From assembly GCF_013744875.1 (NCBI RefSeq), contig NZ_CP059399.1, positions 7,626,001-7,690,000 of the forward strand: 64,000 nt of DNA, read 5' to 3'. The notes beneath the pieces are model-generated. The model searched no databases. It was not told where the DNA came from and saw only the letters and a program-made list of their open reading frames with translations. Positions 49,753 to 64,000 of the stretch are shown here, piece after piece (within the stretch, counting starts at the first letter, position 1; the number at the start of each line of letters is the position of its first letter). This DNA comes from Nocardia huaxiensis (GTDB lineage: Bacteria > Actinomycetota > Actinomycetes > Mycobacteriales > Mycobacteriaceae). The position numbers and the translations under genes were made by a program.

Positions 49753-50871
49753 ATGGTCAGTGAACACACCTCCGCCGTGGAAGACGGCATCGAGCGGATG
49801 CGCGCCGAGTACCGCGCCCTGCTGCGTAGCGACCGGCGCTGGTCGCTCCGCGAGCTGTTCAGCGCGCCGGGCGCCGATATCGCGGAATACTGCCGGGCCT
49901 TCCGCCCGAATCGTTTCGGCGAGGCCGCGTGCGCGGCCGTGGAACAGTTCTGCCGTCGGCATTCGCTGTGGCTGGACGCCGGCGGCGCGCACTACAACAG
50001 CATGACGCCGTACTTACATCCGGGCGCGATCACCGTGGAGCGGATGACGGCGATCGGGATATACAACGCGATTCTGTTCTGGCTCAACGACACTGTCGGC
50101 CGCGAGAAATTCGGGCATTTAAGCCGAAGCGGTCAGCGTGCGGCGGGCGTGGCGGTGGAGCGCATGGTGCGACTACTGGAAACCCGTGCGGCGCCGGACG
50201 ATCCGACCCCCCTCGAGGCGGCCTGCGGCGAATACCTGGCGATGATGACCGGCCTCGCGCAGCCGGAGTGGTTGGAGCGCTTCCTCACGCAGACCGTCGA
50301 GCATTTGCTGCCCGCCATTCAGGACCAGAACGCGCGGGCTCGCGGCTCGCTGCTGGATGTGGACGAATACATCGAACTACGCGCGCATGTCTCGGGCATG
50401 TATCCCGCGATCGCGCTGTGCGAGTTCGGCCAGGACAGCTATCTGGACTGGGCCGACATCGAGAGCGCCGGACTGGCGGACGAGCTGCGCCGACTACGCG
50501 TGCTCACCGTCGACATCGGCGCACTCATGAACGACGTCTTCTCCTTCGAGAAGGAGTGCATCACGGATCTGGCCGATTTCAACCTGATTCCACTGTGGCT
50601 GCTGAACCATCCCGGAACCGATCTGGTGCAGGCCATCGAGGGCGCGGCGGCGATCGTGCGGGACCGGCTGACCGAGTTCCGCACCCTGCACGAGCGGGTG
50701 CTCGCGGACTGCGATCGATTACGGGCAAATGCCCCGGAATCGGCGAAGACCATCGCCCTGCACGCCGCCGATCTGGCCGATTGTGTTCAGGCGACCTGGG
50801 TCTGGCAGATCACCACGCAGCGGTACAAGGGCGAGTCGATCTTCATCGAGAATTGCCTGGTCCGCGCATGA
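49753..50871 (+). CDS. class I terpene synthase-family protein with altered Asp-rich motif
   Basis: 372 residues from ATG 49753. The fold is all-helical. The Mg-binding NSE triad is perfect: NDVFSFEKE at residues 260-268, and QRYKG near the end matches the RY sensor. The first metal motif, normally DDxxD/E, reads NDTVGRE at 112-118 in FWLNDTVGRE, so the first Asp is Asn and the spacing differs. Bacterial terpene synthases cyclise prenyl diphosphates in the cytosol. The product cannot be predicted, and no prenyl transferase gene is adjacent. Confidence 0.88.
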   Translation: MVSEHTSAVEDGIERMRAEYRALLRSDRRWSLRELFSAPGADIAEYCRAFRPNRFGEAACAAVEQFCRRHSLWLDAGGAHYNSMTPYLHPGAITVERMTAIGIYNAILFWLNDTVGREKFGHLSRSGQRAAGVAVERMVRLLETRAAPDDPTPLEAACGEYLAMMTGLAQPEWLERFLTQTVEHLLPAIQDQNARARGSLLDVDEYIELRAHVSGMYPAIALCEFGQDSYLDWADIESAGLADELRRLRVLTVDIGALMNDVFSFEKECITDLADFNLIPLWLLNHPGTDLVQAIEGAAAIVRDRLTEFRTLHERVLADCDRLRANAPESAKTIALHAADLADCVQATWVWQITTQRYKGESIFIENCLVRA

Positions 50872-50984
50872 TTGCGAAAGCCTTTCCGAGCGTCGCGATT
50901 TCAGTGTCGCCGCAGGTTGATACCATCGAGCAAGCCGTAAGCCGCACGGTCGGGGTGCCTCGGAGCAACGCTTGAGGGGGACTG

Positions 50985-52310
50985 GTGGACGAAGTCGAAC
51001 AGTTCGGTCTCGCACGAAAATGGTGGCTTGCACTTACTGAAGCCTGCTTTCTGCCGCTACCGCCGGGTGCGGTACAGAGTTTGCTGACCGGTCTCGTCGC
51101 TGACCTACTGGCCGGTCTGCATAGTGAGCTCTTCGATCCGTCCGTCGGCGCGAGCACGGGCGCGGCCCTGGTCGACGCCCGGCTGACAGCCGATGCGGTG
51201 CTGCCGGTTTCGGCCGGCGTGCTGGCGGGGCTGGCCGCCTACACGAGCCACCCCGAGGCCACGCCGCGCCTGGCCATGCTGCTGGCCGCCTTCGGGCAGG
51301 GCTACGGCAGGGCCCTCGCCGATGCGCGGTGGGCGGGCCGAAAGTCCGTGGAGCAGGCCATGTCCGAGGCGCAGCGCGCGGCGGACGAACGCTTCCGGGT
51401 GGTGTTCGACAATGCGGCCGTGGCCATCGCGGTCGGCGATATGGACGGCTGCCTGGTGGATGCGAACCGCGGCCTGGCCGACATGATCGGCGTCCCCGTC
51501 GAGGCCCTGCGCGGCATCTCGGTCTACGACTTCGCGCACCCCGATGATCGCGACGGCATTCGCGCCGTGATCTACGACAAGCTGGTGCCGGCCGGTGCGG
51601 GCACGGTCAAACTCGAGCAGCGCATTCAGCGCGCCGACGGCTCGTACGGCTGGGCGTCGTTCGCCATCACCTTCGTGAAAGGCGCTGCCGGACATGCCGA
51701 TTACCTGCTCGCGGTCGGTGAGGATGTCACCGAGCGGCATCGCATGGAGGACGAGCTGCACTGGCAGGCCCGCCACGATCCGCTGACCGGCCTGCCCAAT
51801 CGGCGGCAGCTGGTCGAGCGGCTCGAGGGCGCCATCGGCTTGGCGGGCGACGACGATCAGGTCGGCCTGTGCTTCCTGGACCTGGACGGTTTCAAGAACG
51901 TCAACGACCACTACGGCCACGGCGCGGGTGACCGCCTGCTGACGGCCGTCGCCACCCAATTGCGCGCCAGCGTGCCCGAACACGGGGTGCTGGTCTCACG
52001 GATCGGCGGCGACGAATTCGTGGCGCTGATCCCACCACCGGCCGATCAAGACCGGGTGGCCGCGGTGGCGGATAGCCTGCTGTCCTCCCTGGAGGAGCCG
52101 ATCACGGTCGGCCACAACAGGTTACGACTGTCCGCGAGCATCGGCGCGGTGGTCGCCCCGGTATCCGGAGCCGACGCCGAGGCCCTGCTCGACGCCGCCG
52201 ACACCGCCCTGTTCCGCGCCAAGGCGGACGGCAAGGGCCGCTGGGTATTGCGCGCCCACAGCGCACGTCCGGGCGCACTGGCCATCTATTCGGACGAATC
52301 GAGCGCCTGA
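50985..52310 (+). CDS. diguanylate cyclase with PAS domain
   Basis: 441 residues from GTG 50985 behind GAGGGGGA. An N-terminal helical domain (about 1-125) precedes a PAS domain (about 133-255, FRVVFDNAAVAIAVGD) and a complete GGDEF domain (about 262-430): DPLTGLPNRRQ, FLDLDGFKNVNDHYGHGAGD and SRIGGDEFVAL. The GGDEF signature is intact so c-di-GMP synthesis is likely, but no RxxD inhibitory site precedes it. No membrane segment; the PAS ligand is unknown. Confidence 0.94.
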   Translation: MDEVEQFGLARKWWLALTEACFLPLPPGAVQSLLTGLVADLLAGLHSELFDPSVGASTGAALVDARLTADAVLPVSAGVLAGLAAYTSHPEATPRLAMLLAAFGQGYGRALADARWAGRKSVEQAMSEAQRAADERFRVVFDNAAVAIAVGDMDGCLVDANRGLADMIGVPVEALRGISVYDFAHPDDRDGIRAVIYDKLVPAGAGTVKLEQRIQRADGSYGWASFAITFVKGAAGHADYLLAVGEDVTERHRMEDELHWQARHDPLTGLPNRRQLVERLEGAIGLAGDDDQVGLCFLDLDGFKNVNDHYGHGAGDRLLTAVATQLRASVPEHGVLVSRIGGDEFVALIPPPADQDRVAAVADSLLSSLEEPITVGHNRLRLSASIGAVVAPVSGADAEALLDAADTALFRAKADGKGRWVLRAHSARPGALAIYSDESSA

Positions 52311-52414: not shown

Positions 52415-53653
52415 TCAGGCCGACTCCGCATGCACGGCAGCGGGTTCTACCGCCGGGTAGAGGCGATGGACTGTCAGCGCTGCTGCCAGCAATCGCGAAT
52501 CGTGCGGGTCGCTCGGGTCGAGGCCGGTGAGTTCGGCGACGCGGCGCAGGCGGTAGCTGTGGGTGTTGGGGTGCACGTGCAGCACCGCGGCGGCGGCCTT
52601 GCGGTCGGAGCCGTGGCGGATGTGGGCGTCGAGGGCCTCGAACAGGTGCGGGTGGCCGAGGATGGGGGCGATGCGTTCGGAGAGCCGGTCGCGGGCGGGG
52701 CCGGGGCGGGTGAGCTGGTATTCGAGCAGTAGATCGTCGAGGCGGTAGATGCCGGTCGGGCGGCCCAGCAGGCGGGCCAGTTCGGCCAGATCGGTGACAT
52801 GGCGGGCCGCCTCGGGCAGATCGGCGCGGGCCACGCCGGAATACTCGGCCATGTGCACGTCCAGGCCGAACTGCTGGGCGAAGGTGTCGGCCAGATCGTC
52901 GTAGGCTCCGGATCCGCTGGGCAGCAACGCTATTCCGGCACTGCCGTCGAACACGTACAGCGGCGCGCTGCCCGTGCGGGCGGCCAGCGCGCGGTGCACC
53001 AGGCGGATGCGGCGGCGGGTGGCCAGATTGTCAGCGATGGGCACCAGCGGGCCGGTGCGGGCGTGGATGGCGAGGACGTCGTAGTGCTCCTCGAGGGTGA
53101 CGTCGGCGCGGGCGGCGAGGTCCTCGGCGGGTGCGCCCCGCAGCAGGGCCGTGGCGAGGGTGCGGTGCGCCTCCCGCTCCACGGTGTAGACGGTTTCGCC
53201 CACGTCGGCGTGCACCTCGGCCATGGTGATGGTCAGGTGCATGAGCAGGTCCAGCGCGTAGGCCCCGAGGGTGATCAGCTCCTCGAGGTCTTCGGGCCGC
53301 GCCTCCCCCGCCATCTCCAGCCAGCCCCGCCGGGCGCCGACGAAGACCGTTGTCATCAACAGCCGCAACGGGATTCGATCCTCGGCATTGCGCTCCACCA
53401 CCGGCACCACGAACTCGGCGACCTCCTCCGCGGTGAGCGGACGGCGTTCCTCGATGACCCGCAGGAAGTTGATGAAGCCGGAGACCATGTGCGGCAGCAC
53501 CTCTTCGGCGAAGTGCTCATAGGGCAGATCGGCGGTGGCGGGCACCGTGCCGAGCCCGGCCTCGAACACGTTCTGCGCGATATCCCCCAGTCGCGCAAGC
53601 AATCTCGTGAGAATCGGTGAGTCCAGACCGGGCAGCGCTTCAGGGTGGGGCAT
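52415..53653 (-). CDS. PucR/CdaR-family transcriptional regulator
   Basis: 412 residues from ATG 53653. The N-terminal two thirds is a helical ligand region and a GGDEF-like CdaR domain; the C-terminal PucR helix-turn-helix reads ALDAHIRHGSDRKAAAAVLHVHPNTHSYRLRRVAEL in parts. It is divergent from the P450 gene that opens the lipid region, so it is the most likely regulator of the P450-acyltransferase unit. Ligand unknown. Confidence 0.92.
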   Translation of the reverse strand: MPHPEALPGLDSPILTRLLARLGDIAQNVFEAGLGTVPATADLPYEHFAEEVLPHMVSGFINFLRVIEERRPLTAEEVAEFVVPVVERNAEDRIPLRLLMTTVFVGARRGWLEMAGEARPEDLEELITLGAYALDLLMHLTITMAEVHADVGETVYTVEREAHRTLATALLRGAPAEDLAARADVTLEEHYDVLAIHARTGPLVPIADNLATRRRIRLVHRALAARTGSAPLYVFDGSAGIALLPSGSGAYDDLADTFAQQFGLDVHMAEYSGVARADLPEAARHVTDLAELARLLGRPTGIYRLDDLLLEYQLTRPGPARDRLSERIAPILGHPHLFEALDAHIRHGSDRKAAAAVLHVHPNTHSYRLRRVAELTGLDPSDPHDSRLLAAALTVHRLYPAVEPAAVHAESA

Positions 53654-53912
53654 ACCCCGATTGTGAACAATACGACGGGCTCGCGCCAAAGATTGTGACG
53701 CGACCACAATGGTCGGCCGCTGAACCTTGGCACAGAAGACAAAACGAGATCGCGGTCACTGCACGCGAACTGCGGCTATGGAATTCCACGGGTGGTGACC
53801 CGGGCCATAGCCCTCGTCTCGCACGACAATTTCATCGCCTGTTCTTGTCGCCTAAAATAAAGGCTCGCAATGCAATTCGCCGAAACTCGAATTCGCGGAT
53901 ACGCTGCGCAAG

Positions 53913-55298
53913 GTGTCCGCCTCCGCACCTTTTTCCGGCACCGCCTTTTCCGACTCCGCACGACGGCTGTCCGTGGACGACCTGCCGGGGCCCGGCGGAT
54001 GGCCGGTGCTCGGCAATCTGCCGCAGATGCCGCCCGCCGCCATGCATCGCCGATTCGACTCGTGGGCAGATGAATTCGGCCCCATCTATCGGCTGAACGT
54101 GGCCGGTAAACGCGTTGTGGTGGTGAGCGACCCCGATCTCAACAAGGAGATCCTGCGCAATCGCCCCGGCGGATTCCGGCGTCAGTCCTCGATCGAATCC
54201 ATCATGGACGAGATGGGTTCCAACGGCCTGTTCTCCCTCGAGGGCGAGGCCTGGCGGCGACGCCGCAAACTCGCCATGCCGGCCTTCAACGCCTCCCATC
54301 TGCGCGGTTTCCATCCCACCCTGGAAGCCATTACCGAGCGGCTGCGCAAACGCTGGGAACGGCAGGCGCCGGACGATATTCGCGCCGAGCTGACCCGCTA
54401 CACGGTCGATGTCACCGCGAAACTCACCTTCGACTACGACATCAACACCATCGAGCAGTCCGGTGATGTGATCCAGCGGCATCTGGAACTCATCTTCCCC
54501 ACCCTCAACCGCCGCCTGGGCATTCCGATCCCCTACTGGCGCTATGTGAAGCTGCCGCAGGACCGGGCCCTCGACCGGGCGCTGGCCGCGCTGCGGGAGG
54601 ACCTCACCGGCGTCATCGCGCGGGCACGCGCGAATCTGCCCGAGCGGCCGACGAATTTCATCGAAGCCTTGCTACTGGCGCAGGACAGGCAGGAATCCTT
54701 CACCGACGACGAGCTTTTCGCCGAGGCGCTCACCATTCTCATCGCCGGGCAGGACACCACCAGCAATGCCACCGCCTGGCTGCTGTACCACCTGGCGGGC
54801 AATCCCGCTGTGCAAGAGCGCATTCGCGCGGAGATCGCCGAGATTCCCTCCGTGCTGGACCGGCAGCCTTACCTGGAGGCGGTGGCGGCCGAATCCATGC
54901 GGCTGCAACCCACCACGCCGCTGCTGGCCATGGAAGCGGTGCAGGACACCGAGATCGGCGGGGTGCGGGTGCCCGCCGGCACCTGGGTCATCGTCAATGT
55001 GCAGCATGCGGGTGTGCAGGATCGGAACTTCAGTGACCCGCTGGCTTTCGATCCGGAACGCTGGCTGGGCGGCGGGCACGGCAATCACCGGCCGGACGCC
55101 TCCATCCCGTTCGGCTCGGGTCCGCGGTTCTGCCCCGGTCGCGGCCTGGCCATGCTGGAGATCAAGAGTGTGGCGAGCATGGTGTGCCGGACCTTCGACC
55201 TCGGCCTGCCCGCCGACGCCGAACCGCCCACGGACCAATTCCATTTCGCCGTCATCCCGATCGGCATGCGCCTGGATCTGCAGCGTCGCAGGGCCTGA
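53913..55298 (+). CDS. cytochrome P450 (fatty acid hydroxylase-like)
   Basis: 461 residues from GTG 53913. Oxygen-binding helix AGQDTTS, ExxR in ESMRLQP, and the heme loop FGSGPRFCPGRG with the Cys ligand are all present. The N-terminus (LPGPGGWPVLGNLPQM) resembles CYP102/CYP110-like fatty acid hydroxylases. It is soluble, without a membrane anchor. It sits 35 bases upstream of a wax ester/triacylglycerol synthase, so a fatty acyl substrate is plausible. A separate redox partner is needed. Confidence 0.95.
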   Translation: MSASAPFSGTAFSDSARRLSVDDLPGPGGWPVLGNLPQMPPAAMHRRFDSWADEFGPIYRLNVAGKRVVVVSDPDLNKEILRNRPGGFRRQSSIESIMDEMGSNGLFSLEGEAWRRRRKLAMPAFNASHLRGFHPTLEAITERLRKRWERQAPDDIRAELTRYTVDVTAKLTFDYDINTIEQSGDVIQRHLELIFPTLNRRLGIPIPYWRYVKLPQDRALDRALAALREDLTGVIARARANLPERPTNFIEALLLAQDRQESFTDDELFAEALTILIAGQDTTSNATAWLLYHLAGNPAVQERIRAEIAEIPSVLDRQPYLEAVAAESMRLQPTTPLLAMEAVQDTEIGGVRVPAGTWVIVNVQHAGVQDRNFSDPLAFDPERWLGGGHGNHRPDASIPFGSGPRFCPGRGLAMLEIKSVASMVCRTFDLGLPADAEPPTDQFHFAVIPIGMRLDLQRRRA

Positions 55299-55333
55299 AA
55301 ACCACGGTGCCTCAACCCAGCTCGAGGAGCATC

Positions 55334-56818
55334 ATGTCCATCAAGCGGTTGTCCGCGACCGACGGCATCTGGCTGTCGCTCGAATCACCCGATATGCCCA
55401 TGCATGTCGCGTTCCTGCTGGAGTTCACCGCACCCGACGGTGACGCCGCCCGCTACGTGCGCCGCTGGCGGGCACAGTTCACCGCCCCGGTGCCGGTGCC
55501 GCAGCCGTGGAACCTCGCCCCGGTGCCGGGCCCGCTGGGCCGGCTGCTGGCGCTCGTGCGCGAGACCGACGAGATCGACCCGCTCCAGCACATCCACAGC
55601 CGCCGGCTGACCCGCGTCGGCGACCGGCAGGAACTGGTGGAGCTGGCCACGCGCATCCACCGCGAACAACTGAATCCCGCACGGCCGCAATGGGAAATCC
55701 ACATCGTGGAGGGGCTCGCGGCGGACCGGTTCGCGGTGATCCTCAAAGTGCACCACAGCCTCTTCGACGGGGCCTCGCTCATGCGGCTGTTCACCGACAC
55801 CTACTCGGAGGACCCGGAGGATCGAGATACGCCGGAGCTGTTCAGTATCGGAAGAGCGCAGTCGGCCGGAGAACCACACCCGGACGCTCCAGCACCCGCT
55901 GAGCAGCCATTGCCGAATCCCCTCACCTCGAAGCCGTACTCCGCGAACCCGCTGTTCTCGTCGAATCCGCTGCGTGCCTTGCTGATCGCATTGCGCGGCG
56001 TGCTCGAACTGGTCCGCGGCATCGGCAGTGCGGCACGGGATGCCCTGCGCCGCAGGCGCGGCCGGCGCGATCTCCCCCAGCGGGCGTACCAGCAGCCGCA
56101 CTCGATCTTCGACGGACCCATCACCGGCGGCCGCGATCTGTCCCTGCGCCGCTACGATCTGGCCAGATTCAAGCAGCTGGCCAAGGCCGCCGACTGCACC
56201 ATCAACGACATCGTGCTGTATCTGGTCGGCACCGCCCTGCGCGAATACCTCGGCGAGCACGCCGAATTGCCGCAGGAGTCCCTGACCGCCGGTGTGCCGA
56301 TGGACCTGCGCGAGCAGGACGACGATCGGGTTGGCACCCGTGCGGGCATGATGTTCACGGCACTGGCCACCGATGTCGACGACCCGCTGGAACGCCTGGC
56401 CGCGGTACGCGCGTATATCGGTGCGGCCAAGGGACATATGGCCGACATGTCCCCGAATGCCGTGATCGGCTACGGCCTGGGCGTCACACTCCCGTGGATC
56501 CTCGGACTCAGCTGGGGATTCGACCGCACCCCCGCCTCCCACCCCATGGGCATCTCCAATGTCCCGGGCCCCCGCAACCCCCTGTACTGGAACGGCGCCC
56601 GCCTCGAAGCGCTCTATCCGATCTCCCTGCTCATGCACGGCAACCCGTTCAACGTCACCTGCGTCGGCTACAACGGCGCACTGCACTTCGGCGTGCTGGG
56701 GGCTTCCGATTCACTCCCGCCGATGGAATACCTGACACAGAGCCTGGACGCCGCACTCGACGAACTGACAGCACTGCTGCTACCGGCTGAGGAGCGGGTC
56801 ATGCCGTCTGCCGGATAG
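55334..56818 (+). CDS. WS/DGAT-family O-acyltransferase
   Basis: 494 residues from ATG 55334 behind GAGGAG. The active-site motif HHSLFDG (about residue 138) and the C-terminal SNVPGPRNPLYWNGARL are diagnostic of bacterial wax ester synthase/diacylglycerol acyltransferases. It forms wax esters or triacylglycerols from acyl-CoA and an alcohol or diacylglycerol at the membrane surface. Transcribed with the P450, which could provide hydroxy fatty acids as acceptors. A Pro/Arg-rich insert at about 180-260 is more variable. Confidence 0.94.
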   Translation: MSIKRLSATDGIWLSLESPDMPMHVAFLLEFTAPDGDAARYVRRWRAQFTAPVPVPQPWNLAPVPGPLGRLLALVRETDEIDPLQHIHSRRLTRVGDRQELVELATRIHREQLNPARPQWEIHIVEGLAADRFAVILKVHHSLFDGASLMRLFTDTYSEDPEDRDTPELFSIGRAQSAGEPHPDAPAPAEQPLPNPLTSKPYSANPLFSSNPLRALLIALRGVLELVRGIGSAARDALRRRRGRRDLPQRAYQQPHSIFDGPITGGRDLSLRRYDLARFKQLAKAADCTINDIVLYLVGTALREYLGEHAELPQESLTAGVPMDLREQDDDRVGTRAGMMFTALATDVDDPLERLAAVRAYIGAAKGHMADMSPNAVIGYGLGVTLPWILGLSWGFDRTPASHPMGISNVPGPRNPLYWNGARLEALYPISLLMHGNPFNVTCVGYNGALHFGVLGASDSLPPMEYLTQSLDAALDELTALLLPAEERVMPSAG

Positions 56819-56845
56819 GCCGCCGTCGCCGAGACCTGAAACAGC

Positions 56846-56876
56846 AACGCTCCCGGCCATTCCGGCCGGGAGCGTT
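56846..56876. terminator. bidirectional hairpin terminator
   Basis: Perfect 13-bp stem AACGCTCCCGGCC / GGCCGGGAGCGTT, loop ATTCC, followed by ACTTTGG. It separates the convergent acyltransferase and nltD genes. Confidence 0.88.
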
Positions 56877-56922
56877 ACTTTGGTTTGCCCGGCAGTGGTG
56901 GTCGGCCGGGTGGAGATGGCGG

Positions 56923-57945
56923 TCAGCCGAGCAGGGCGGGCAGGCCGCCGATCGAGTTGACCCACTCGACGTAGCGATCCGTGCCTTCGCGCAGCGACAC
57001 CGTTGGCGTGTAGCCGAAGTCCCGTTTCGCGGCAGACGTGTCGTAGGTGTTCGAGACCGTGAGCGCGGCAACTGTCCAGCTCGACAGCGGCGGGGCGATC
57101 CGCTCCTGCAGTCCGGGAATCTTCCACACGGTGTCGAAGACGCCGATCACCGCGTCCAGCAACGGTTTCGGAATGGTTCGGGTCGGCGGGGTGAGGTCGA
57201 AGGCGGTGGCCAGGTCCCGTGCGAAACCCCAGAGGTCCACGTCCTCGGCGTCGGCGAGGAAGTACGCCTTGCCCGCTACCGCGTCCGACCGGGAAGCCTG
57301 CACGCACGCCTGCGCCGCGTGCTCGCAGTAGGTGATCGAGACCATGACCGGCTTGCCGCCGGAGAGGTCGGGCAGCCGACCGGAGCGAATCTTGTTGAGC
57401 AGCAGTGTCATCCAGCCGCCCGAGCGCGGGCCCCAGATCATGCGCGGGCGCAGCGCGCAGGTGGTGAAGTCGCCGCTGTCGGCGGCCAGCACCTCGCGCT
57501 CGGCGACCGCCTTGGTTTCGACGTAGTAGCTCTTGGGGTTGCGGACGTACGGTTCCGACTCGTCCATGCCGAAGCGGTCGCGGTCGTATTCGGTGGCGAC
57601 GCTGGGGCTGCTCACGAAGACGAACCGGCCCACGCCCGCACCGCGCGCGGCGTCCATGAGCCGGCGGGTGCCCAGCACATTGGCGTCCCAGAATTGGTCG
57701 CGGCTGCCGGTCTCCTCCACGCGGCCGGCGCTGTGGTGCACCACGTCCACGCCCTTGCAGGCGGCGGCGAGGGATTCGGCGTCGCCGAGATCGCCGTGCA
57801 CCACCTCGATATCGGGCAGAGTGCTCAGATGGCCGAGATTGCTGGTGGGCCGGGCCAGGACGCGCACCTCGTCACCGGCCGCGAGGCAGTGGTCGACGAT
57901 ATGGCTGCCGAGGAAGCCGGTGGCTCCGGTGACGAGGACTTTCAT
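56923..57945 (-). CDS. nltD: NltD/OleD-type 2-alkyl-3-oxoalkanoate reductase
   Basis: 340 residues from ATG 57945, overlapping the nltC stop (ATGA). An extended SDR with nucleotide motif GATGFLGSH and catalytic YxxxK in YVETK; RPRMIWGPRSGG and YFLADAEDVDLW follow OleD. In beta-lactone and olefin pathways it reduces the 2-alkyl-3-ketoacid to the beta-hydroxy acid used by the lactone synthetase. Last gene of the nlt operon. Confidence 0.9.
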   Translation of the reverse strand: MKVLVTGATGFLGSHIVDHCLAAGDEVRVLARPTSNLGHLSTLPDIEVVHGDLGDAESLAAACKGVDVVHHSAGRVEETGSRDQFWDANVLGTRRLMDAARGAGVGRFVFVSSPSVATEYDRDRFGMDESEPYVRNPKSYYVETKAVAEREVLAADSGDFTTCALRPRMIWGPRSGGWMTLLLNKIRSGRLPDLSGGKPVMVSITYCEHAAQACVQASRSDAVAGKAYFLADAEDVDLWGFARDLATAFDLTPPTRTIPKPLLDAVIGVFDTVWKIPGLQERIAPPLSSWTVAALTVSNTYDTSAAKRDFGYTPTVSLREGTDRYVEWVNSIGGLPALLG

Positions 57946-59792
57946 CGCTGCTTGCTGACTTTCATCGGTGTTGGATTGCCGAGTTCGCTGTCGGCGCTGG
58001 GTTTGTCGGCACTGGGTTTGTCCGCACCAGCCTTGTCGTACCCGAGCCGCTGCGCCGCCCACACCGCGAGCTGCTCGCGGCCGATCTTGGCGTTGTGCCT
58101 GATGTCGACCGGAAAGCCACTGTGGTGCAGGAAGGTTCGGATGGGCGCGGTGAGTTCGCGGGTCGCCGCCAGCCGCCACAGTTCCCGCTCGACGCGCGGG
58201 GCCTCGGCCGGATCGACACCCTCGCGCAGTTCGTAGCACAGCACCGGCACCTCGGCGCCCGGTCGGCCGACGCCCACCAGCGCGGTACGGTGCACGTCCG
58301 GATGCGCGGTGAAGACCTGCTCACAGCGCACGGTGAACATATCCCCCGCCGCCGTGCGCACCCGCTGAGAGATTCGCCCGCAGAACCACAGTGCACCGCT
58401 CGCGTCCCGCCACGCCAGATCGCCGACGCGATGCCAGCGACGCACGGTGCCGTCGGGCAATCGCTCGTCGATCTTGGCGCGGGCATTCGCCGCCGGATTC
58501 CGGTGATAGGACTTGCTGACCTGCCCGCCGGTGGCGACGATCTCGCCCACCTCGCCGGGCGCGACCTCCAGATCATCACTCCAGTACGGGATTTCGTCAT
58601 CGGTGATGCGGATGAGCCGGACCCGCGTGTCACTGTCGGTCTCCGGCAGCGCACGGCCGACGCAGGTGCCCGCGCCGTCGAGGGTGCGGGCGCGCATCTC
58701 GTCGAGTTCCGACCATTCCAGCGTGGTCAGCGGCAGCGCCTCGGTCGCGCCGTAGGTGGTGAACACCCGCGCCCGCGGTCCGAGCGCCGCACGCACGCCG
58801 CCGAGGGCGGACAGGTTCGCGGGCGCGCCCATGGAGATCACGGTGGTGAGATCGGGCAGCTGTACGCGCTGCTCCGCCGGCGTGGCACCGCGTGCCGGAG
58901 AAGCACTGTGCCGCAGGTGCTCTCCGAGCGGCCCGAGCAGGGCGGGTGAAGCGGTCAGGTCCGTGACCCGGAAGCGTTTCGCCACATCCACCAGCAGCGC
59001 CGGATCGGCCTGCGCCACCCGCACCGGGTCCACCGGCCCGAGAATGAGATGCGCGCCCTGCAGCAGGTCGAAGATCCCGAACAGCGGCACGGTCACCAGG
59101 GAGGTGAATCCGTCTGTGCGCCCGTGCAAGTCGGTGACCACGCGCAGCGAGGCGGCGAAGCCCGCGCGGGTGAACTCGACGCCCTTCGCCGGTCCGGTGC
59201 TGCCGGTGGTGAAAGCGATCATGAGCAGATCGTCGGGCCGATGCGTGATCCGGACCGGCGCGGCCGTCTTGCCGCGCTCGGCGAGCTCCTCGAGCGTGTG
59301 CCCGCCCCAGAACGAGCGGCCAGCCGTCACCTGCACCCGGATCTCGCGGAAGGTCCGCCTTGCCGCCAGCCGCACCGCATGCGCGCGCGGCACCCCGATG
59401 AATGCCTGCGCGCCCACACTCTGGAAGCAGTGCAGCATGCGCCGCACCCCCATGCCCGGGTCCACCACAACCGGCACCGCACCGACCCGGAACAGCGCGA
59501 AGATCACCGCGAACAGGTCCGGGTCCGGGCGGACCATGACAATCGTCTTGACGCCCTTGCCGATGCCGATCTCGACGAAGGAGCGCGCATAGGCGTCGAT
59601 CCGCTCGCCCAGCTCCCGGAAGGTCAACTGCGCGAAGTCGAGCGCCTCGGCCGAAGGAGCGCGATCGGCATTGCGAACCGTCGGATAGGTCACTGCGGGC
59701 ATGGCTGCGTACTTCTCGACCTGCCGCTGCAACAGGATGTCGAGATCCTCAGCGGCTGAGCTGGTTGCCCTGCCTTCGGACGCCGCCGTCAC
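57942..59792 (-). CDS. nltC: NltC/OleC-type beta-lactone synthetase (ANL superfamily)
   Basis: 616 residues from GTG 59792, overlapping the nltB stop. ANL motifs are FTTGSTGPAKG (phosphate loop), TTYGATEALP (A5) and WHRVGDLAWRDASG (A7). Linked to OleA- and OleD-like genes it is best read as the enzyme that adenylates a beta-hydroxy acid and closes the beta-lactone ring, not as an acyl-CoA ligase. The C-terminal about 25 residues repeat KPSAD-like units and are probably disordered. Confidence 0.9.
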   Translation of the reverse strand: MTAASEGRATSSAAEDLDILLQRQVEKYAAMPAVTYPTVRNADRAPSAEALDFAQLTFRELGERIDAYARSFVEIGIGKGVKTIVMVRPDPDLFAVIFALFRVGAVPVVVDPGMGVRRMLHCFQSVGAQAFIGVPRAHAVRLAARRTFREIRVQVTAGRSFWGGHTLEELAERGKTAAPVRITHRPDDLLMIAFTTGSTGPAKGVEFTRAGFAASLRVVTDLHGRTDGFTSLVTVPLFGIFDLLQGAHLILGPVDPVRVAQADPALLVDVAKRFRVTDLTASPALLGPLGEHLRHSASPARGATPAEQRVQLPDLTTVISMGAPANLSALGGVRAALGPRARVFTTYGATEALPLTTLEWSELDEMRARTLDGAGTCVGRALPETDSDTRVRLIRITDDEIPYWSDDLEVAPGEVGEIVATGGQVSKSYHRNPAANARAKIDERLPDGTVRRWHRVGDLAWRDASGALWFCGRISQRVRTAAGDMFTVRCEQVFTAHPDVHRTALVGVGRPGAEVPVLCYELREGVDPAEAPRVERELWRLAATRELTAPIRTFLHHSGFPVDIRHNAKIGREQLAVWAAQRLGYDKAGADKPSADKPSADSELGNPTPMKVSKQR

Positions 59793-60700
59793 GCGTTCCC
59801 GGCCATCCGGTAGCCGGCGGCCGCCGCCATCGGGCCCGAACCCGCTGCGAGCAGGACCAATTCCGAGTCGGGTGCGATCTCGCCGCTCTCGCGCAGCTGA
59901 TGGTAGGCGATCGCCAGTCCCGAGCTGCCCGCGTCGCGGTCACCGGTCATGGCCTGATAGCCGCGTGCGAAGCCGAACCGCTCTGCCAGATCGGCAGCCA
60001 ACTCCGGAATCGGATTATTGGTGACGAGAACAGCTTTGGCGGAGTCCAGGCCGGTGCGGTCCAGATGCTCACGCAGGGTGTCGGCGGCGGTGGCGGCCAG
60101 CACGCTCTCGTAGTCCTCGGCGACATCGACCGTAATCGTCTGCTGCCCAGCGTTTCCCATGGACTTCAAGTCCAGGTATCCGCGCACCCCGGGATTCGTC
60201 CCGGCGACCCGGCCGCGCACCGGCGTGATGGTGATGGGACCGAAGCCCGCGTCGACGCCCTGACTCAGCAGCCAGGCCGCACCGACGGTGGCACACCGGA
60301 AGTCCTGCGGCGCAGCGTTATTCCCGCCCGGATGCGCATCGCTGCCGACGATCAGCACCCGTCCCGCGGTCCCATTGGCCAGCAGGGCGGTGGCCGCCTG
60401 TGCGGCATTGAGCACCCCGCAGGCCCCATTGCGCAGATCGAGCGAGAAGGTGGAGCGTCCCGACCCGGCCACGTAGTCCGGGTGCATGTCCAGCCCGAGC
60501 TGGATGAGCGCGGAGTTGGCCGGTTCCACCACATTGCCGTCGCGGTAGACGCCCACATTGATGAGCACGTCGATGTCGTCGGGCCCGATTCCGGCCCGCT
60601 CCAGGCACTCTCGTCCGGCGGCGACGGCGTGGTCGATCGAGCCGGTGCCTTCCGGGGCGGCGCTGATCGCGGACTGTTCGATTACTACGGACACGTTCAT
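59789..60700 (-). CDS. nltB: NltB: thiolase-fold partner subunit, Cys kept but His/Asn lost
   Basis: 303 residues from ATG 60700 behind GGTGGG; ATG 60730 is an alternative overlapping nltA. The fold is FabH/OleA-like with Cys94 in RNGACGVLNAA. At the expected His and Asn positions it reads VTNNPIPEL and GDRDAGSS, so the usual C-H-N triad is broken. Glu59 in VVEPANSAL may be the residue offered to the partner's active site, as proposed for two-subunit OleA relatives such as LstA/LstB. Works with NltA. Confidence 0.88.
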   Translation of the reverse strand: MNVSVVIEQSAISAAPEGTGSIDHAVAAGRECLERAGIGPDDIDVLINVGVYRDGNVVEPANSALIQLGLDMHPDYVAGSGRSTFSLDLRNGACGVLNAAQAATALLANGTAGRVLIVGSDAHPGGNNAAPQDFRCATVGAAWLLSQGVDAGFGPITITPVRGRVAGTNPGVRGYLDLKSMGNAGQQTITVDVAEDYESVLAATAADTLREHLDRTGLDSAKAVLVTNNPIPELAADLAERFGFARGYQAMTGDRDAGSSGLAIAYHQLRESGEIAPDSELVLLAAGSGPMAAAAGYRMAGNA

Positions 60701-60713
60701 CCCACCAATCACT

Positions 60714-61754
60714 TCAGCCGACGAGCGCATCGACGGTGGCCGACATGACGCCGAAAATCATTCCGGACGCGGTCGGCACGAAACAGATCTTGGAACCCTT
60801 GGGTATTTCGCCGCGCGAAATGTAGTCGTACAGCGCGAGGAAATGCGTGCTGGCACCGGTATTGGCGTATTTGTGCACGGTGGCCAGGCGCGGCGGCATC
60901 TCGGCCTGGTGGATCTTGCTGCCGGATTCGGCGAGTTTCTCGGTGAAGGCGACGCCGAGCTGATGGAAGACGATGAAATCGAACTTCTCCTCGGCGAAGC
61001 TGCTGCCGCGCTTTTCCAGCAGATCGCGATGCAGTTTCGCCCAGGTTTCCCGGCGCGGGGCGGCCTGCATGGTGATGTTGTCGGTCAGCATGATCATGTT
61101 CTCGCTGGCGTCGCTGGGCTTGGCGATGCACAGCGGCGAGAATTCCGCGCTGCAGATCATGTCCACGTAGTGGATGCGGTCCTGCTCGTCCTCGGCGCGG
61201 TCCACCAGGATCGCCACCGCGGCGTCGGCCAGGGTGAGCGCCGGGAACTGGAGATCGCGCGGATCCTTGGCCTCGGCGAGCGCGCCCTCGGTGACCGGGG
61301 AGATGATCTCGGAGGTGACGACCATGCCGGTGCGCACGATGCCGGCCCGAATCATGTTCTCCAGCAGGTAGATCGCGGTCATGGTGCCGCCGCAGGCATT
61401 GACCACGTCGTAGCCGGTGGCATTGTCGGCGCCGATGCGCCGGGCGATCTCGTGTGCGGCGGCGGGCTCGAAGACCATGTGGAAGCCGTCGTGCACGGTG
61501 GTGCCGGCGCTGATGATGATGTCGAGATCGGCGGCCTCGTACTTCGACCGGGCCAGGCAGTCGAGGGCGGCGCGTTCGCCCAGCGACAGCGTGTCCTCCC
61601 CCGCCGACCGGTCCACCATGCGCCGGGTGCGGATGCCGGTGATCCGCTCGACCTCGAATTGCCCGCCGCTGGACATTCTTTCCAGCACTTCGTCCGTGGT
61701 GTATTCGCGCCGGGGCAGGGCGGCTCCGAGCGCACCGAGGCGTGCAGCACTCAC
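60714..61754 (-). CDS. nltA: NltA: OleA-type thiolase, non-decarboxylative Claisen condensation
   Basis: 346 residues from GTG 61754. A full catalytic triad is present: Cys121 in VNACGGTMT, His264 in FHQLG and Asn298 in YANTGAST. OleA relatives condense two fatty acyl-CoAs to a 2-alkyl-3-ketoacid. It opens the nltABCD operon; starts and stops of all four genes overlap or nearly touch. The order and content match the nocardiolactone clusters reported in Nocardia. Confidence 0.92.
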   Translation of the reverse strand: MSAARLGALGAALPRREYTTDEVLERMSSGGQFEVERITGIRTRRMVDRSAGEDTLSLGERAALDCLARSKYEAADLDIIISAGTTVHDGFHMVFEPAAAHEIARRIGADNATGYDVVNACGGTMTAIYLLENMIRAGIVRTGMVVTSEIISPVTEGALAEAKDPRDLQFPALTLADAAVAILVDRAEDEQDRIHYVDMICSAEFSPLCIAKPSDASENMIMLTDNITMQAAPRRETWAKLHRDLLEKRGSSFAEEKFDFIVFHQLGVAFTEKLAESGSKIHQAEMPPRLATVHKYANTGASTHFLALYDYISRGEIPKGSKICFVPTASGMIFGVMSATVDALVG

Positions 61755-62094
61755 AATCGTGACTCCCGCTTCGTGAGTAGAAATGGCGTCGGCGAAATAC
61801 GCCGTCCATGGGAAGAACCGAGGCGATCAATGGCTCGGGCTCGTATTTCACGGACGGTAGGAGCCGGAACCGTACGCTGTCAAGGAAACCGGCGGGCCGG
61901 AGCGACCCACATCACCGTGATAGCCGTATTCGTACTCCTCCGATAGCAATTGCCGCAGCGCTTTTTGGTGCGGGTGACAAAACCCTTCTCGTGGTTGCGA
62001 CTTCGGCGAATCCCTGAGCTAACCTGGCCGCAACCGGACTTCGTGGCCATTCGGCTATTCGCCTGTAGCGCAGCAGATTTGGAGCTTGTTCGCG
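61755..62094. other. divergent control region between nltA and the second P450
   Basis: 340 bases with both promoters and no convincing gene. The stretch 61905-62060 is less GC-rich than its flanks. On the plus strand TTGCGA near 61998 and TAACCT near 62023 could form a promoter with a long spacer. No clear inverted repeat for a regulator was found. Confidence 0.45.
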
Positions 62095-63498
62095 ATGACA
62101 CTCATTGGTACGGACACGGCACGGTCCACCACCGGATCCAGCCGCCCGGCGGCAGGATCCCCCGCCACCCGCCGGGCGCCCACCGCGCCGGGCGCGCTCC
62201 CGCTGCTGGGGCACTGGCCGCGCTTCGGCCGCCGGCCCTATCGCTTCCTGTCCACCCTGCCGGCCGTGGGTCCGGTTGTGCGCGTGCGAATTCCGGGCTA
62301 CGACACCTACGTTGTCACCGACCCCGAACTGGTGCGCGAGTCGTTCGTGGCGCTCTCGGATCAGGGCATGATGATCGAACGGGCCGAGGCGCTGCTCGGC
62401 GAGGGCGTGACCGTGCTGCAGGGACAGCGGCACCGGCGGGAACGCCGCATGATCGCGCCCGCCTTCGCCAAGGCCCGCATCGCCCGCTACGCCGAGGTCA
62501 TGACGAGACACGGTGCGGCGCGGGCGGATTCCTGGCGCGTGGGTCAGGTGCTGGCCGTCAACGAACAGATGCACGATCTGGCGCTGCGAACTGTCGCCGG
62601 GGCGCTGTTCAGCGGCGAGCTGGGCGCGGAGACCGCCGAGCACATCCATCGACTGCTGCCGCCCGTCATGACGTTGCTCTCGCGCCGGGTCACCCGTCCG
62701 GCCTGGATCGACCGACTCCCGCTGCCCGGCAACCGTCGCTTCACCGCCCTGGTCGCCGAGATGAAAACGGCGACGGGCACCATTATTTCGGCCTATCGCG
62801 CCGAACTGGCCGCCGACCCGGAGCTCGATCACGGCGATCTGCTCGACACGCTGCTCAAGGCCCGCGACGAATCCGGGGCCGCGCTCACCGACTCGCAGGT
62901 GCACGACGAGCTGATCAACTTCCTGGTGGGCGGCACCGAGGCCATCGGCGCCACCCTCGCCTGGGTGTTCCATGAACTGGGCGCCAACCCGGCGGTGGAA
63001 GCCGCACTGCACGCCGAGGTCGACGCGGTGCTCGACGGCGGGCGCGCGGCGGAATTCGCGGATCTGGCCCGGCTGGAGGTGACCAAGCGCATCGTGCTCG
63101 AGACGCTGCGCAAGTACTCACCGTGGTTGACGGTGCGGCATGTGCCGGAGCCCTATGTGCTCGGCGGGGTCGAGATACCCGCGGGCAGCATGCTTTTCGT
63201 GTGCCCGGTCGCGGTGCACCGGGACCCGGCCGTGCACGCCGATCCGCTGCGCTTCGACCCGGATCGCTGGCTGCCCGAACGCATGGCCGACCTGTCCAAG
63301 GGGGCGCACCTGCCCTTCGGCATGGGTGCGCGGCAGTGCCCGGGCAATATCTTCGCGCTCACCGAGATCGCACTCCAGGTGGCGACCATCAGCGCTCGCT
63401 GGCGGCTGCGGCCGATTCCCGGAATCCCGGTGCGGGAGACCGTGATCGGTGCGCTCGTGCATCCGGAGCAGCTGCCCATGCAGGTGGAGGCGCGCTGA
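62095..63498 (+). CDS. cytochrome P450 near the beta-lactone operon
   Basis: 467 residues from ATG 62095 behind GGAG. ExxR is ETLRKYS and the heme loop FGMGARQCPGN is intact. The oxygen-binding I-helix reads VGGTEAIGATL, where the usual acid-Thr pair is Glu-Ala, as in some unusual P450s. The first 45 residues are Ser/Thr/Ala/Pro-rich without a membrane helix. It is divergent from nltA and followed after two bases by an MmpL gene, so oxidation of the exported lipid is plausible. Confidence 0.94.
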   Translation: MTLIGTDTARSTTGSSRPAAGSPATRRAPTAPGALPLLGHWPRFGRRPYRFLSTLPAVGPVVRVRIPGYDTYVVTDPELVRESFVALSDQGMMIERAEALLGEGVTVLQGQRHRRERRMIAPAFAKARIARYAEVMTRHGAARADSWRVGQVLAVNEQMHDLALRTVAGALFSGELGAETAEHIHRLLPPVMTLLSRRVTRPAWIDRLPLPGNRRFTALVAEMKTATGTIISAYRAELAADPELDHGDLLDTLLKARDESGAALTDSQVHDELINFLVGGTEAIGATLAWVFHELGANPAVEAALHAEVDAVLDGGRAAEFADLARLEVTKRIVLETLRKYSPWLTVRHVPEPYVLGGVEIPAGSMLFVCPVAVHRDPAVHADPLRFDPDRWLPERMADLSKGAHLPFGMGARQCPGNIFALTEIALQVATISARWRLRPIPGIPVRETVIGALVHPEQLPMQVEAR

Positions 63499-63500
63499 CC

Positions 63501-64000
63501 GTGCTGGACTTCGTAATGCGCCGGCACCGGCTGGTGCTGACGATCGCCGCCGTCTTCGCCCTGCTGGCGGGGGCGGCGGGCATGACCCTGTTCGACAGGT
63601 TGCAGGGCGGTGGCTACTTCGATCCGGGCGCGGAATCCACGGCCGCGAGTGCCGCGCTGCGTGAGCATTTCGGGCAGGGCGCACCGAATCTGGTGCTGCT
63701 GGTGGACACCGGCGGATCGGTGAACGACGCCGAAACCACCCGTGCCGCAACCGCACTCGTCGATCGACTGCGCGGTGAAGCGGATGTCACGGGGGTGATG
63801 TCCTACTGGACCTCCGGTCAACTGCCCGCGCTGCGCGACAAGCAGGGCGGCAAGGGGCTCGTCGTCGCCACCATCCTCGGCGACGAAATGCACATCGACG
63901 ACCGGATCGCCGCGCTGGCACCGGAATTCGGCGGTCGCCACGACGGCCTCGACGTGCGCGTGGGCGGCTACGCCATGATGGCGCACGAGACGGTGAAACA
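63501..64000 (+). CDS. MmpL/RND-family lipid transporter (5' part, runs off window)
   Basis: The first 166 residues from GTG 63501. An N-terminal membrane helix after RRHRL (VLTIAAVFALLAGAAGMTLFD) precedes a periplasmic porter-like domain with NLVLLVDTGGSVND, as in MmpL proteins. These transport lipids across the inner membrane using the proton gradient. Two bases from the P450, so certainly the same operon, and it may export the beta-lactone or a related lipid. The rest lies beyond the right edge. Confidence 0.9.
   Translation, partial: MLDFVMRRHRLVLTIAAVFALLAGAAGMTLFDRLQGGGYFDPGAESTAASAALREHFGQGAPNLVLLVDTGGSVNDAETTRAATALVDRLRGEADVTGVMSYWTSGQLPALRDKQGGKGLVVATILGDEMHIDDRIAALAPEFGGRHDGLDVRVGGYAMMAHETVK

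Follow-up and report, generated by a model that had tools for sequence, protein, structure and literature searches.

Robinson et al. in 2020 are said to have identified nltABCD of Nocardia brasiliensis as the nocardiolactone cluster. PMC7413640, which cites the paper linking nocardiolactone to its cluster, counts 36 nocardiolactone clusters, six of which were first called lipstatin-type. For the lipstatin enzymes, PMC12141560 reports that mutation of C128, H271 or N305 in LstA, or of E60 in LstB, abolishes LstAB activity or complex formation. In PMC7064751, the oleA-GT-oleC-P450-oleD cluster of Actinoplanes atraurantiacus (GT, glycosyltransferase) is proposed to act by cytochrome P450 (P450) hydroxylation of the acyl chain, followed by the transferase on the new alcohol. 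The locus described here lies in a stretch of 64,000 nucleotides from Nocardia huaxiensis (NCBI RefSeq assembly GCF_013744875.1, contig NZ_CP059399.1, positions 7,626,001 to 7,690,000 of the forward strand), referred to as the window. Open reading frames and Pfam/NCBIfam matches place nltDCBA on the minus strand, with nltA to nltD running leftwards. A P450 (P450a) and a wax ester synthase/diacylglycerol acyltransferase (WS/DGAT) lie on the plus strand to one side, and a second P450 (P450b) with an MmpL transporter on the plus strand to the other; the earlier note on this DNA had described these flanks, including their strands, correctly. The region is interpreted, at a probability of roughly 0.7, as a single extended cluster whose genes would make a decorated long-chain beta-lactone; its clade is distinct from that of nocardiolactone. 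No description of the extended cluster was found in the literature searched, which comprised the accessible parts of open-licence papers.

The comparison set comprised 150 Nocardia genomes (genomes and loci are cited by G and L numbers). NltC-like matches (E ≤ 1e-100) were obtained in 105 of them and window-type NltC in 15 (63–87% identity), every other match being at 52% or below; these 15 genomes, with G111 as a sixteenth, are referred to as carriers. A copy of the common NltC clade was also present in 8 of the 15, and likewise in G111 (L150). N. brasiliensis gave a single NltC match at the same threshold, of the common type and within an nltABCD operon (L131), which is taken as the nocardiolactone cluster. 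For the NltC tree, the best match per locus was used, repeat loci and matches that were below 250 bits or too short were excluded, and the 92 sequences kept were midpoint-rooted. The 16 window-type sequences formed one clade (FastTree 1.0, ultrafast bootstrap 88; 0.86 and 100 without N. aurea). Together with 29 loci from Streptomyces, Kitasatospora, Lentzea and similar sources, they were split from Rhodococcus, the common Nocardia type and four others (bootstrap 98–100, FastTree 0.94–1.0); as in lipstatin, an NRPS (non-ribosomal peptide synthetase) gene follows nltD in both Streptomyces loci checked from that grouping.

Identity of the window with the nocardiolactone cluster itself was considered and ruled out by this clade split, by the 37–50% identity between the nlt genes of the window and those of N. 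brasiliensis, and by the presence of both NltC types in 8 of 15 carriers. A known nocardiolactone cluster with chance neighbours, which would account for the A-B-C-D order shared with L131, is hardly credible in view of the same three results and of the restriction of P450b to carriers. The term nocardiolactone-type in the earlier note fits the gene content, a KAS-III pair with OleC-type and OleD-type enzymes in A-B-C-D order, but not the lineage, as N. brasiliensis belongs to the other NltC clade and its cluster is not flanked by P450a or P450b. The data say that some Nocardia possess a predicted second beta-lactone pathway, inherited separately beside the common one.

P450b (E ≤ 1e-110) was found in 15 of 150 genomes at 73–91% identity, exactly the 15 with window-type NltC. 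Its match starts at most 4.1 kb from the nltC match start in 14 of them; in G137 it lies after the nltD end, at the start of a second contig. The coincidence would have p = 6e-21 if the genomes were independent; as they are not, the figure shows scale only. P450a (E ≤ 1e-100) occurs in 17 genomes, namely the 15 carriers defined by NltC, G111 and G130 (52% identity); the 17 kb around the G130 relative hold no nlt gene. The 6.6 kb contig of G111 encodes NltB (59%, cut), NltA (73%), P450a, WS/DGAT and an MmpL and breaks inside nltB, and on this content G111 counts as a sixteenth carrier, its nltC being absent from the contig; window-type P450b and the flavin monooxygenase (FMO) described below were not found in this genome. 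WS/DGAT (E ≤ 1e-90) is present in 15 of 150 genomes, all of them carriers; all 16 carriers have it next to P450a, G124 in the form of a remnant. The FMO, of Baeyer–Villiger monooxygenase (BVMO) type, was detected in 14 of 15 carriers with a query from G001 (67–100% identity, next best 48%). As the control neighbour, the PucR-type regulator alone was run over the 150 genomes and matched 92 of them without carrier specificity. Matches of at least 60% over most of the length were confined to G001, G002 and G120, with 62% over part of the length in G095, and among the loci seen, the gene lies next to the cluster in the window and in its near relatives L001, L002 and L123, and in no others. PucR was rejected as a core part, not being carrier-specific. 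The earlier note had put it at the left edge, where it is indeed found (52415–53707), just outside the start of the region at 53913.

The arrangement of the co-inherited genes varies. P450a-WS/DGAT lies to the nltD side of nltABCD in N. aurea and the N. terrae group, and to the nltA side in G111, N. thailandica and the N. amikacinitolerans group. In N. transvalensis the distance is about 13 kb, and five of the 16 carriers, G124 and the N. vinacea group, have the pair at a different genomic locus. The relocated locus consists of P450a-WS/DGAT-FMO in four of these five (L142–L145), 5.5 Mb from nltC in G143 (a single contig of 10.4 Mb) and on other contigs in three drafts. The FMO adjoins P450b or MmpL in 10 carriers and WS/DGAT in 4. 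MmpL follows P450b in 9 of 15; a different MmpL (31% to the first; Pfam for one of them) lies beyond WS/DGAT in G006, G022, G036, G148, G137 and G111, and no MmpL was found in the stretch examined of N. aurea. The flavin monooxygenase comes directly after MmpL in four close relatives (L001, L002, L003, L123), and by analogy an FMO is expected just past base 64000 in the window genome. The earlier note would have given up its proposal if other genomes with nlt genes lacked the flanking genes or had them scattered. Within the window-type clade the flanks are co-inherited, with 5 of 16 relocated rather than missing and G124 eroded; they are absent at the cut-offs from genomes with common-type NltC only, so that over all nlt-bearing Nocardia the proposal would fail this test.

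Active-site motifs were compared across aligned copies, and Cys121, His264 and Asn298 of NltA were present in 17 of 17. Glu69 of NltB was likewise present in 17 of 17; by eye, its catalytic His and Asn are missing, and in N. thailandica Arg takes the place of its Cys. These residues appear to mirror those of LstA and LstB, the equivalence being judged by motif and position by eye and not by alignment. The YxxxK motif of NltD was retained in 16 of 16 copies, the heme Cys motif of P450a in 16 of 17 (missing in the G124 remnant), its I-helix AGQDT in 17 of 17, and HHxxxDG of WS/DGAT in 16 of 17 (missing from the G124 remnant); with both domains and this motif, the window acyltransferase conforms to the WS/DGAT definition. 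In all 16 aligned copies of P450b, the window's among them, the I-helix reads GGTEA, Ala replacing the usual Thr; the best solved relative of P450b, PDB 3dbg (253 bits), which we take to be CYP170A1, has ET (Thr) at that place. When this Thr is changed in other P450s, the substrate may supply the proton-relay hydroxyl, and by analogy the substrate of P450b may do so too.

The FMO of the relatives contains FxGxxxHxxxW[PD] in 13 of 14 copies (the exception ending in WH) and a second motif in 14 of 14, which we take together to be the two type I Baeyer–Villiger motifs. The N. acididurans protein matches cyclohexanone and phenylacetone monooxygenases (245 bits to cyclohexanone monooxygenase, best stretch residues 3–225 of 492), and the FMO is accordingly assigned as a predicted type I Baeyer–Villiger-type enzyme. 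Beta-keto acids can lose CO2, giving ketones. A BVMO-like enzyme with both motifs near a pair predicted to make such acids would also suit a pathway that does not end with the beta-lactone: the BVMO would oxidise the keto acid from NltAB, or a ketone derived from it, to an ester, from which WS/DGAT would build a wax or envelope lipid. This is quite improbable, given that no carrier lacks NltC or NltD where its contig extends that far, that YxxxK of NltD is kept, and that no alpha/beta-hydrolase (OleB-type) occurs among the 11 window genes scanned (49.7–64 kb).

For the species background, 30 genomes (16 carriers, 14 others) were picked for rpoB and 28 gave a match (G111 and G053 none). The G096 copy, paralog-like on a long branch, was disregarded; the G096, G003 and G012 copies were partial and several nodes had low support. 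In the resulting tree, carriers fell into at least four groups with non-carriers between: the N. vinacea group, N. aurea, N. thailandica, and one that joins the N. terrae and N. amikacinitolerans groups and has the non-carrier G130 nested within it. Because these groups are separated by non-carriers, the carrier pattern does not follow one lineage. Pairwise distances were tested for 14 of 16 carriers (13 for FMO; G096, G111 and the window omitted). Distances of the tailoring genes correlated with those of NltC at rho 0.54–0.61, values reached by no more than 1 of 2000 permutations, against 0.27 and 134 of 2000 for rpoB; P450a, WS/DGAT and FMO do not track rpoB (0.00–0.09).

Several observations weigh against a single pathway. 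MmpL (E ≤ 1e-90) occurs in 150 of 150 genomes, with copies of 60–67% in many non-carriers, and a gene resembling Asn synthase adjoins the P450a-WS/DGAT-FMO module in some carriers and was not found in most. The distances fall into two blocks, nltABCD (0.79–0.91) and P450a-WS/DGAT-FMO (0.93–0.95), with cross-block values of 0.38–0.61 and P450b in between (0.53–0.64 and 0.68–0.78), and NltA and NltD correlate with rpoB (0.44 and 0.41) about equally as with P450a (0.39 and 0.38). Because of this block structure and the rpoB correlation, the histories of the modules may be partly separate and the distance test is weak evidence. The best NCBIfam matches of P450b are, like 3dbg, terpene P450s, because of which its substrate cannot be read from the sequence. 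G124 retains nltABCD-P450b-MmpL; its FMO is gone, and a deletion (L141, 9.7–11.2 kb) has fused P450a and WS/DGAT into one frame without heme and HHxxxDG motifs, a decay by which the P450a/WS/DGAT and FMO module has been dispensable at least once. The same profile could also arise, with no product in common, from block transfer of linked genes.

The two distance blocks, and the position of the P450a module at another locus in five carriers (eroded in G124), would be expected if two separate pathways lay side by side, nltABCD-P450b making one lipid and P450a-WS/DGAT-FMO acting on another substrate, and co-travelled since they once moved as a block. Such a partition is rather unlikely, as some of both blocks occurs in each of the 15 NltC-defined carriers (in G124 in eroded form), which span at least four rpoB groups, the P450a module was retained after relocation in four, and the FMO ties the blocks by its varying position. 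Co-inheritance, even where the set is split in two, points to one decorated lipid as the putative product. The larger lipid pathway of the earlier note stands for the P450s and WS/DGAT, which are co-inherited with window-type nlt genes, and not for PucR and MmpL. For MmpL, which was rejected as a specific cluster marker because similar copies occur in many non-carriers, the suggested role of exporter remains plausible. As to the virulence-linked lipid of the earlier note, no evidence of such a link emerged, and no search was aimed at it.

For the single extended cluster, we infer the substrates, step order, acylation site and export as follows. By family, NltA (Cys-His-Asn) and NltB (Glu) would catalyse a head-to-head, non-decarboxylative condensation of two acyl-CoAs, NltD would reduce the 3-keto group, and NltC would adenylate the acid and close the beta-lactone ring. 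P450a may hydroxylate the alkyl chain or an acyl precursor and WS/DGAT O-acylate the hydroxyl so made, which is the simplest assignment of the two enzymes; P450b and the Baeyer–Villiger-type FMO expected beyond the window would add further oxidation, and MmpL would export the product. The product would thus be oxidised, probably O-acylated, and exported. More tentatively, it may represent a third kind of decorated microbial beta-lactone, oxidised, fatty-acylated and NRPS-free. P450a and WS/DGAT would then give the ester that NRPS and formyltransferase give in lipstatin, the BVMO and the atypical P450b (no I-helix Thr) would insert further oxygen, and in the N. vinacea group the tailoring genes would act from a place far from the core.

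Features of the cluster region, in window positions (SDR, short-chain dehydrogenase/reductase)
Feature	Positions	Strand	Matches and remarks
PucR-type regulator	52415..53707	-	HTH_30, 63.5 bits; border gene
P450a	53913..55298	+	PF00067, 280 bits; predicted hydroxylase of alkyl chain or precursor
WS/DGAT O-acyltransferase	55334..56818	+	PF03007, PF06974; TIGR02946, 349.7 bits (cut-off 309.95); predicted to acylate the new hydroxyl
Terminator-like hairpin	56846..56876	+	stem of 13 pairs with a T-rich tail; lies where WS/DGAT and nltD converge
NltD, SDR ketoreductase	56923..57945	-	3Beta_HSD; best NCBIfam OleD, 229 bits (cut-off 580)
NltC, OleC-type beta-lactone synthetase	57942..59792	-	AMP-binding; family scores in text
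NltB, KAS-III-like partner	59789..60700	-	no Pfam match
NltA, catalytic KAS-III	60714..61754	-	KAS-III match
P450b	62086..63498	+	conserved partner of window-type nlt clade
MmpL transporter, start only	63501..64000	+	gene runs past window end at 64000

NltC scored 527 bits against PRK09274 (fatty acid CoA ligase), above the cut-off of 478, and 499.5 bits against the OleC model, below the equivalog cut-off of 900; no solved relative was found at 1e-20. The 168-residue MmpL piece in the window gave no Pfam match and is 90% identical to the start of the N. acididurans MmpL (L001), which itself matches PF03176. NltB of the window is 99% identical to an N. huaxiensis protein. The reading frames of NltB and NltC overlap at GTGA and those of NltC and NltD at ATGA, and the gap between P450b and MmpL is 2 bp. 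The scan that located the hairpin returned 3 terminator-like sites, where chance alone would give 4.0, and detected nothing promoter-like. To the left of PucR, a terpene synthase (PF19086) and then a PAS-GGDEF protein are encoded at 49753–52310; both were dismissed as cluster parts, no such match being present in the carrier loci examined. The Asn-synthase-like neighbour (E ≤ 1e-180) was found in 8 of 150 genomes, 7 of 16 carriers and the non-carrier G098, and was rejected as core on this distribution. In N. aurea (L006, 1.4–7.2 kb; L139, 14.0–19.8 kb), a second NltA/NltB pair, 39/35% to that of the window, lies between the FMO and the Asn-synthase-like gene.

Common-type loci were sampled as 12 of about 110 (L127–L137, L140). 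In 9 of the 12, nltABCD is followed by a protein of about 400 residues, with MmpL next in 8 and a second BVMO-like gene upstream in 4. The protein has an invariant HxxxDG in 7 aligned copies and matches in 102 of 150 genomes; Pfam and PDB sequence searches gave nothing convincing, and Foldseek matches of a low-confidence model (mean pLDDT 52.9) to condensation domains and PapA5 lend weak support to a putative acyltransferase. A lipstatin-type operon in Rhodococcus qingshengii IEGM 1359 (L060, 8.8–19.7 kb) comprises nltABCD-like genes, NRPS, formyltransferase and MmpL in that order. By these common Nocardia loci and L060, the pattern of beta-lactone core, decorating transferase and MmpL recurs with different transferases, and the MmpL after these cores counts in favour of the single extended cluster.

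Further arrangements were observed in passing. In L127, L128 and L129 (G001, G003 and G002), NltA-NltB is divergent from NltC-NltD and an alpha/beta-hydrolase (Pfam for L128; nucleophile region GHCFGS by eye), which adjoins a gene LuxR-like by eye. In L098, L099 and L100, from three Nocardia genomes, NltC-like matches of 49–50% cover residues 181–588 in frames of 766–786 residues, each with a putative-acyltransferase match close by, judged by coordinates. Outside Actinobacteria, nltABCD-like sets occur in metagenome-assembled genomes of Myxococcales (L023) and Desulfobacterium (L040), the C/D order being swapped in L040.

On comparative support, the extended cluster predicted to make a beta-lactone is real and separate from nocardiolactone in Nocardia. 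The likely tailoring genes of a second Nocardia beta-lactone pathway are thereby named, in the split clusters nature has already separated core from tailoring steps genetically, and, given the separate inheritance of this pathway, lipid extracts of carriers and non-carriers are directly comparable.

Set beside the known systems, the N. brasiliensis cluster shares the gene order of the window, a KAS-III pair ahead of the OleC-type ligase and the OleD-type reductase (L131), and has an MmpL nearby; it differs by a putative acyltransferase (HxxxDG) and another MmpL, with no P450a, P450b or WS/DGAT match in the 20 kb examined. The lst cluster of lipstatin (Streptomyces toxytricini; PMC12141560) resembles the window in the division of residues between LstA and LstB, which recurs in NltA and NltB, and in the NltC tree the window type falls together with loci from Streptomyces and similar sources. 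By contrast, the window has P450s and WS/DGAT, and no NRPS or formyltransferase among the 11 genes scanned at 49.7–64 kb. The A. atraurantiacus cluster (PMC7064751) shares the predicted hydroxylation of the acyl chain by a P450 with later decoration of the alcohol; it uses a glycosyltransferase and one P450, whereas the window type combines WS/DGAT, two P450s, a BVMO, an MmpL and a KAS-III pair.

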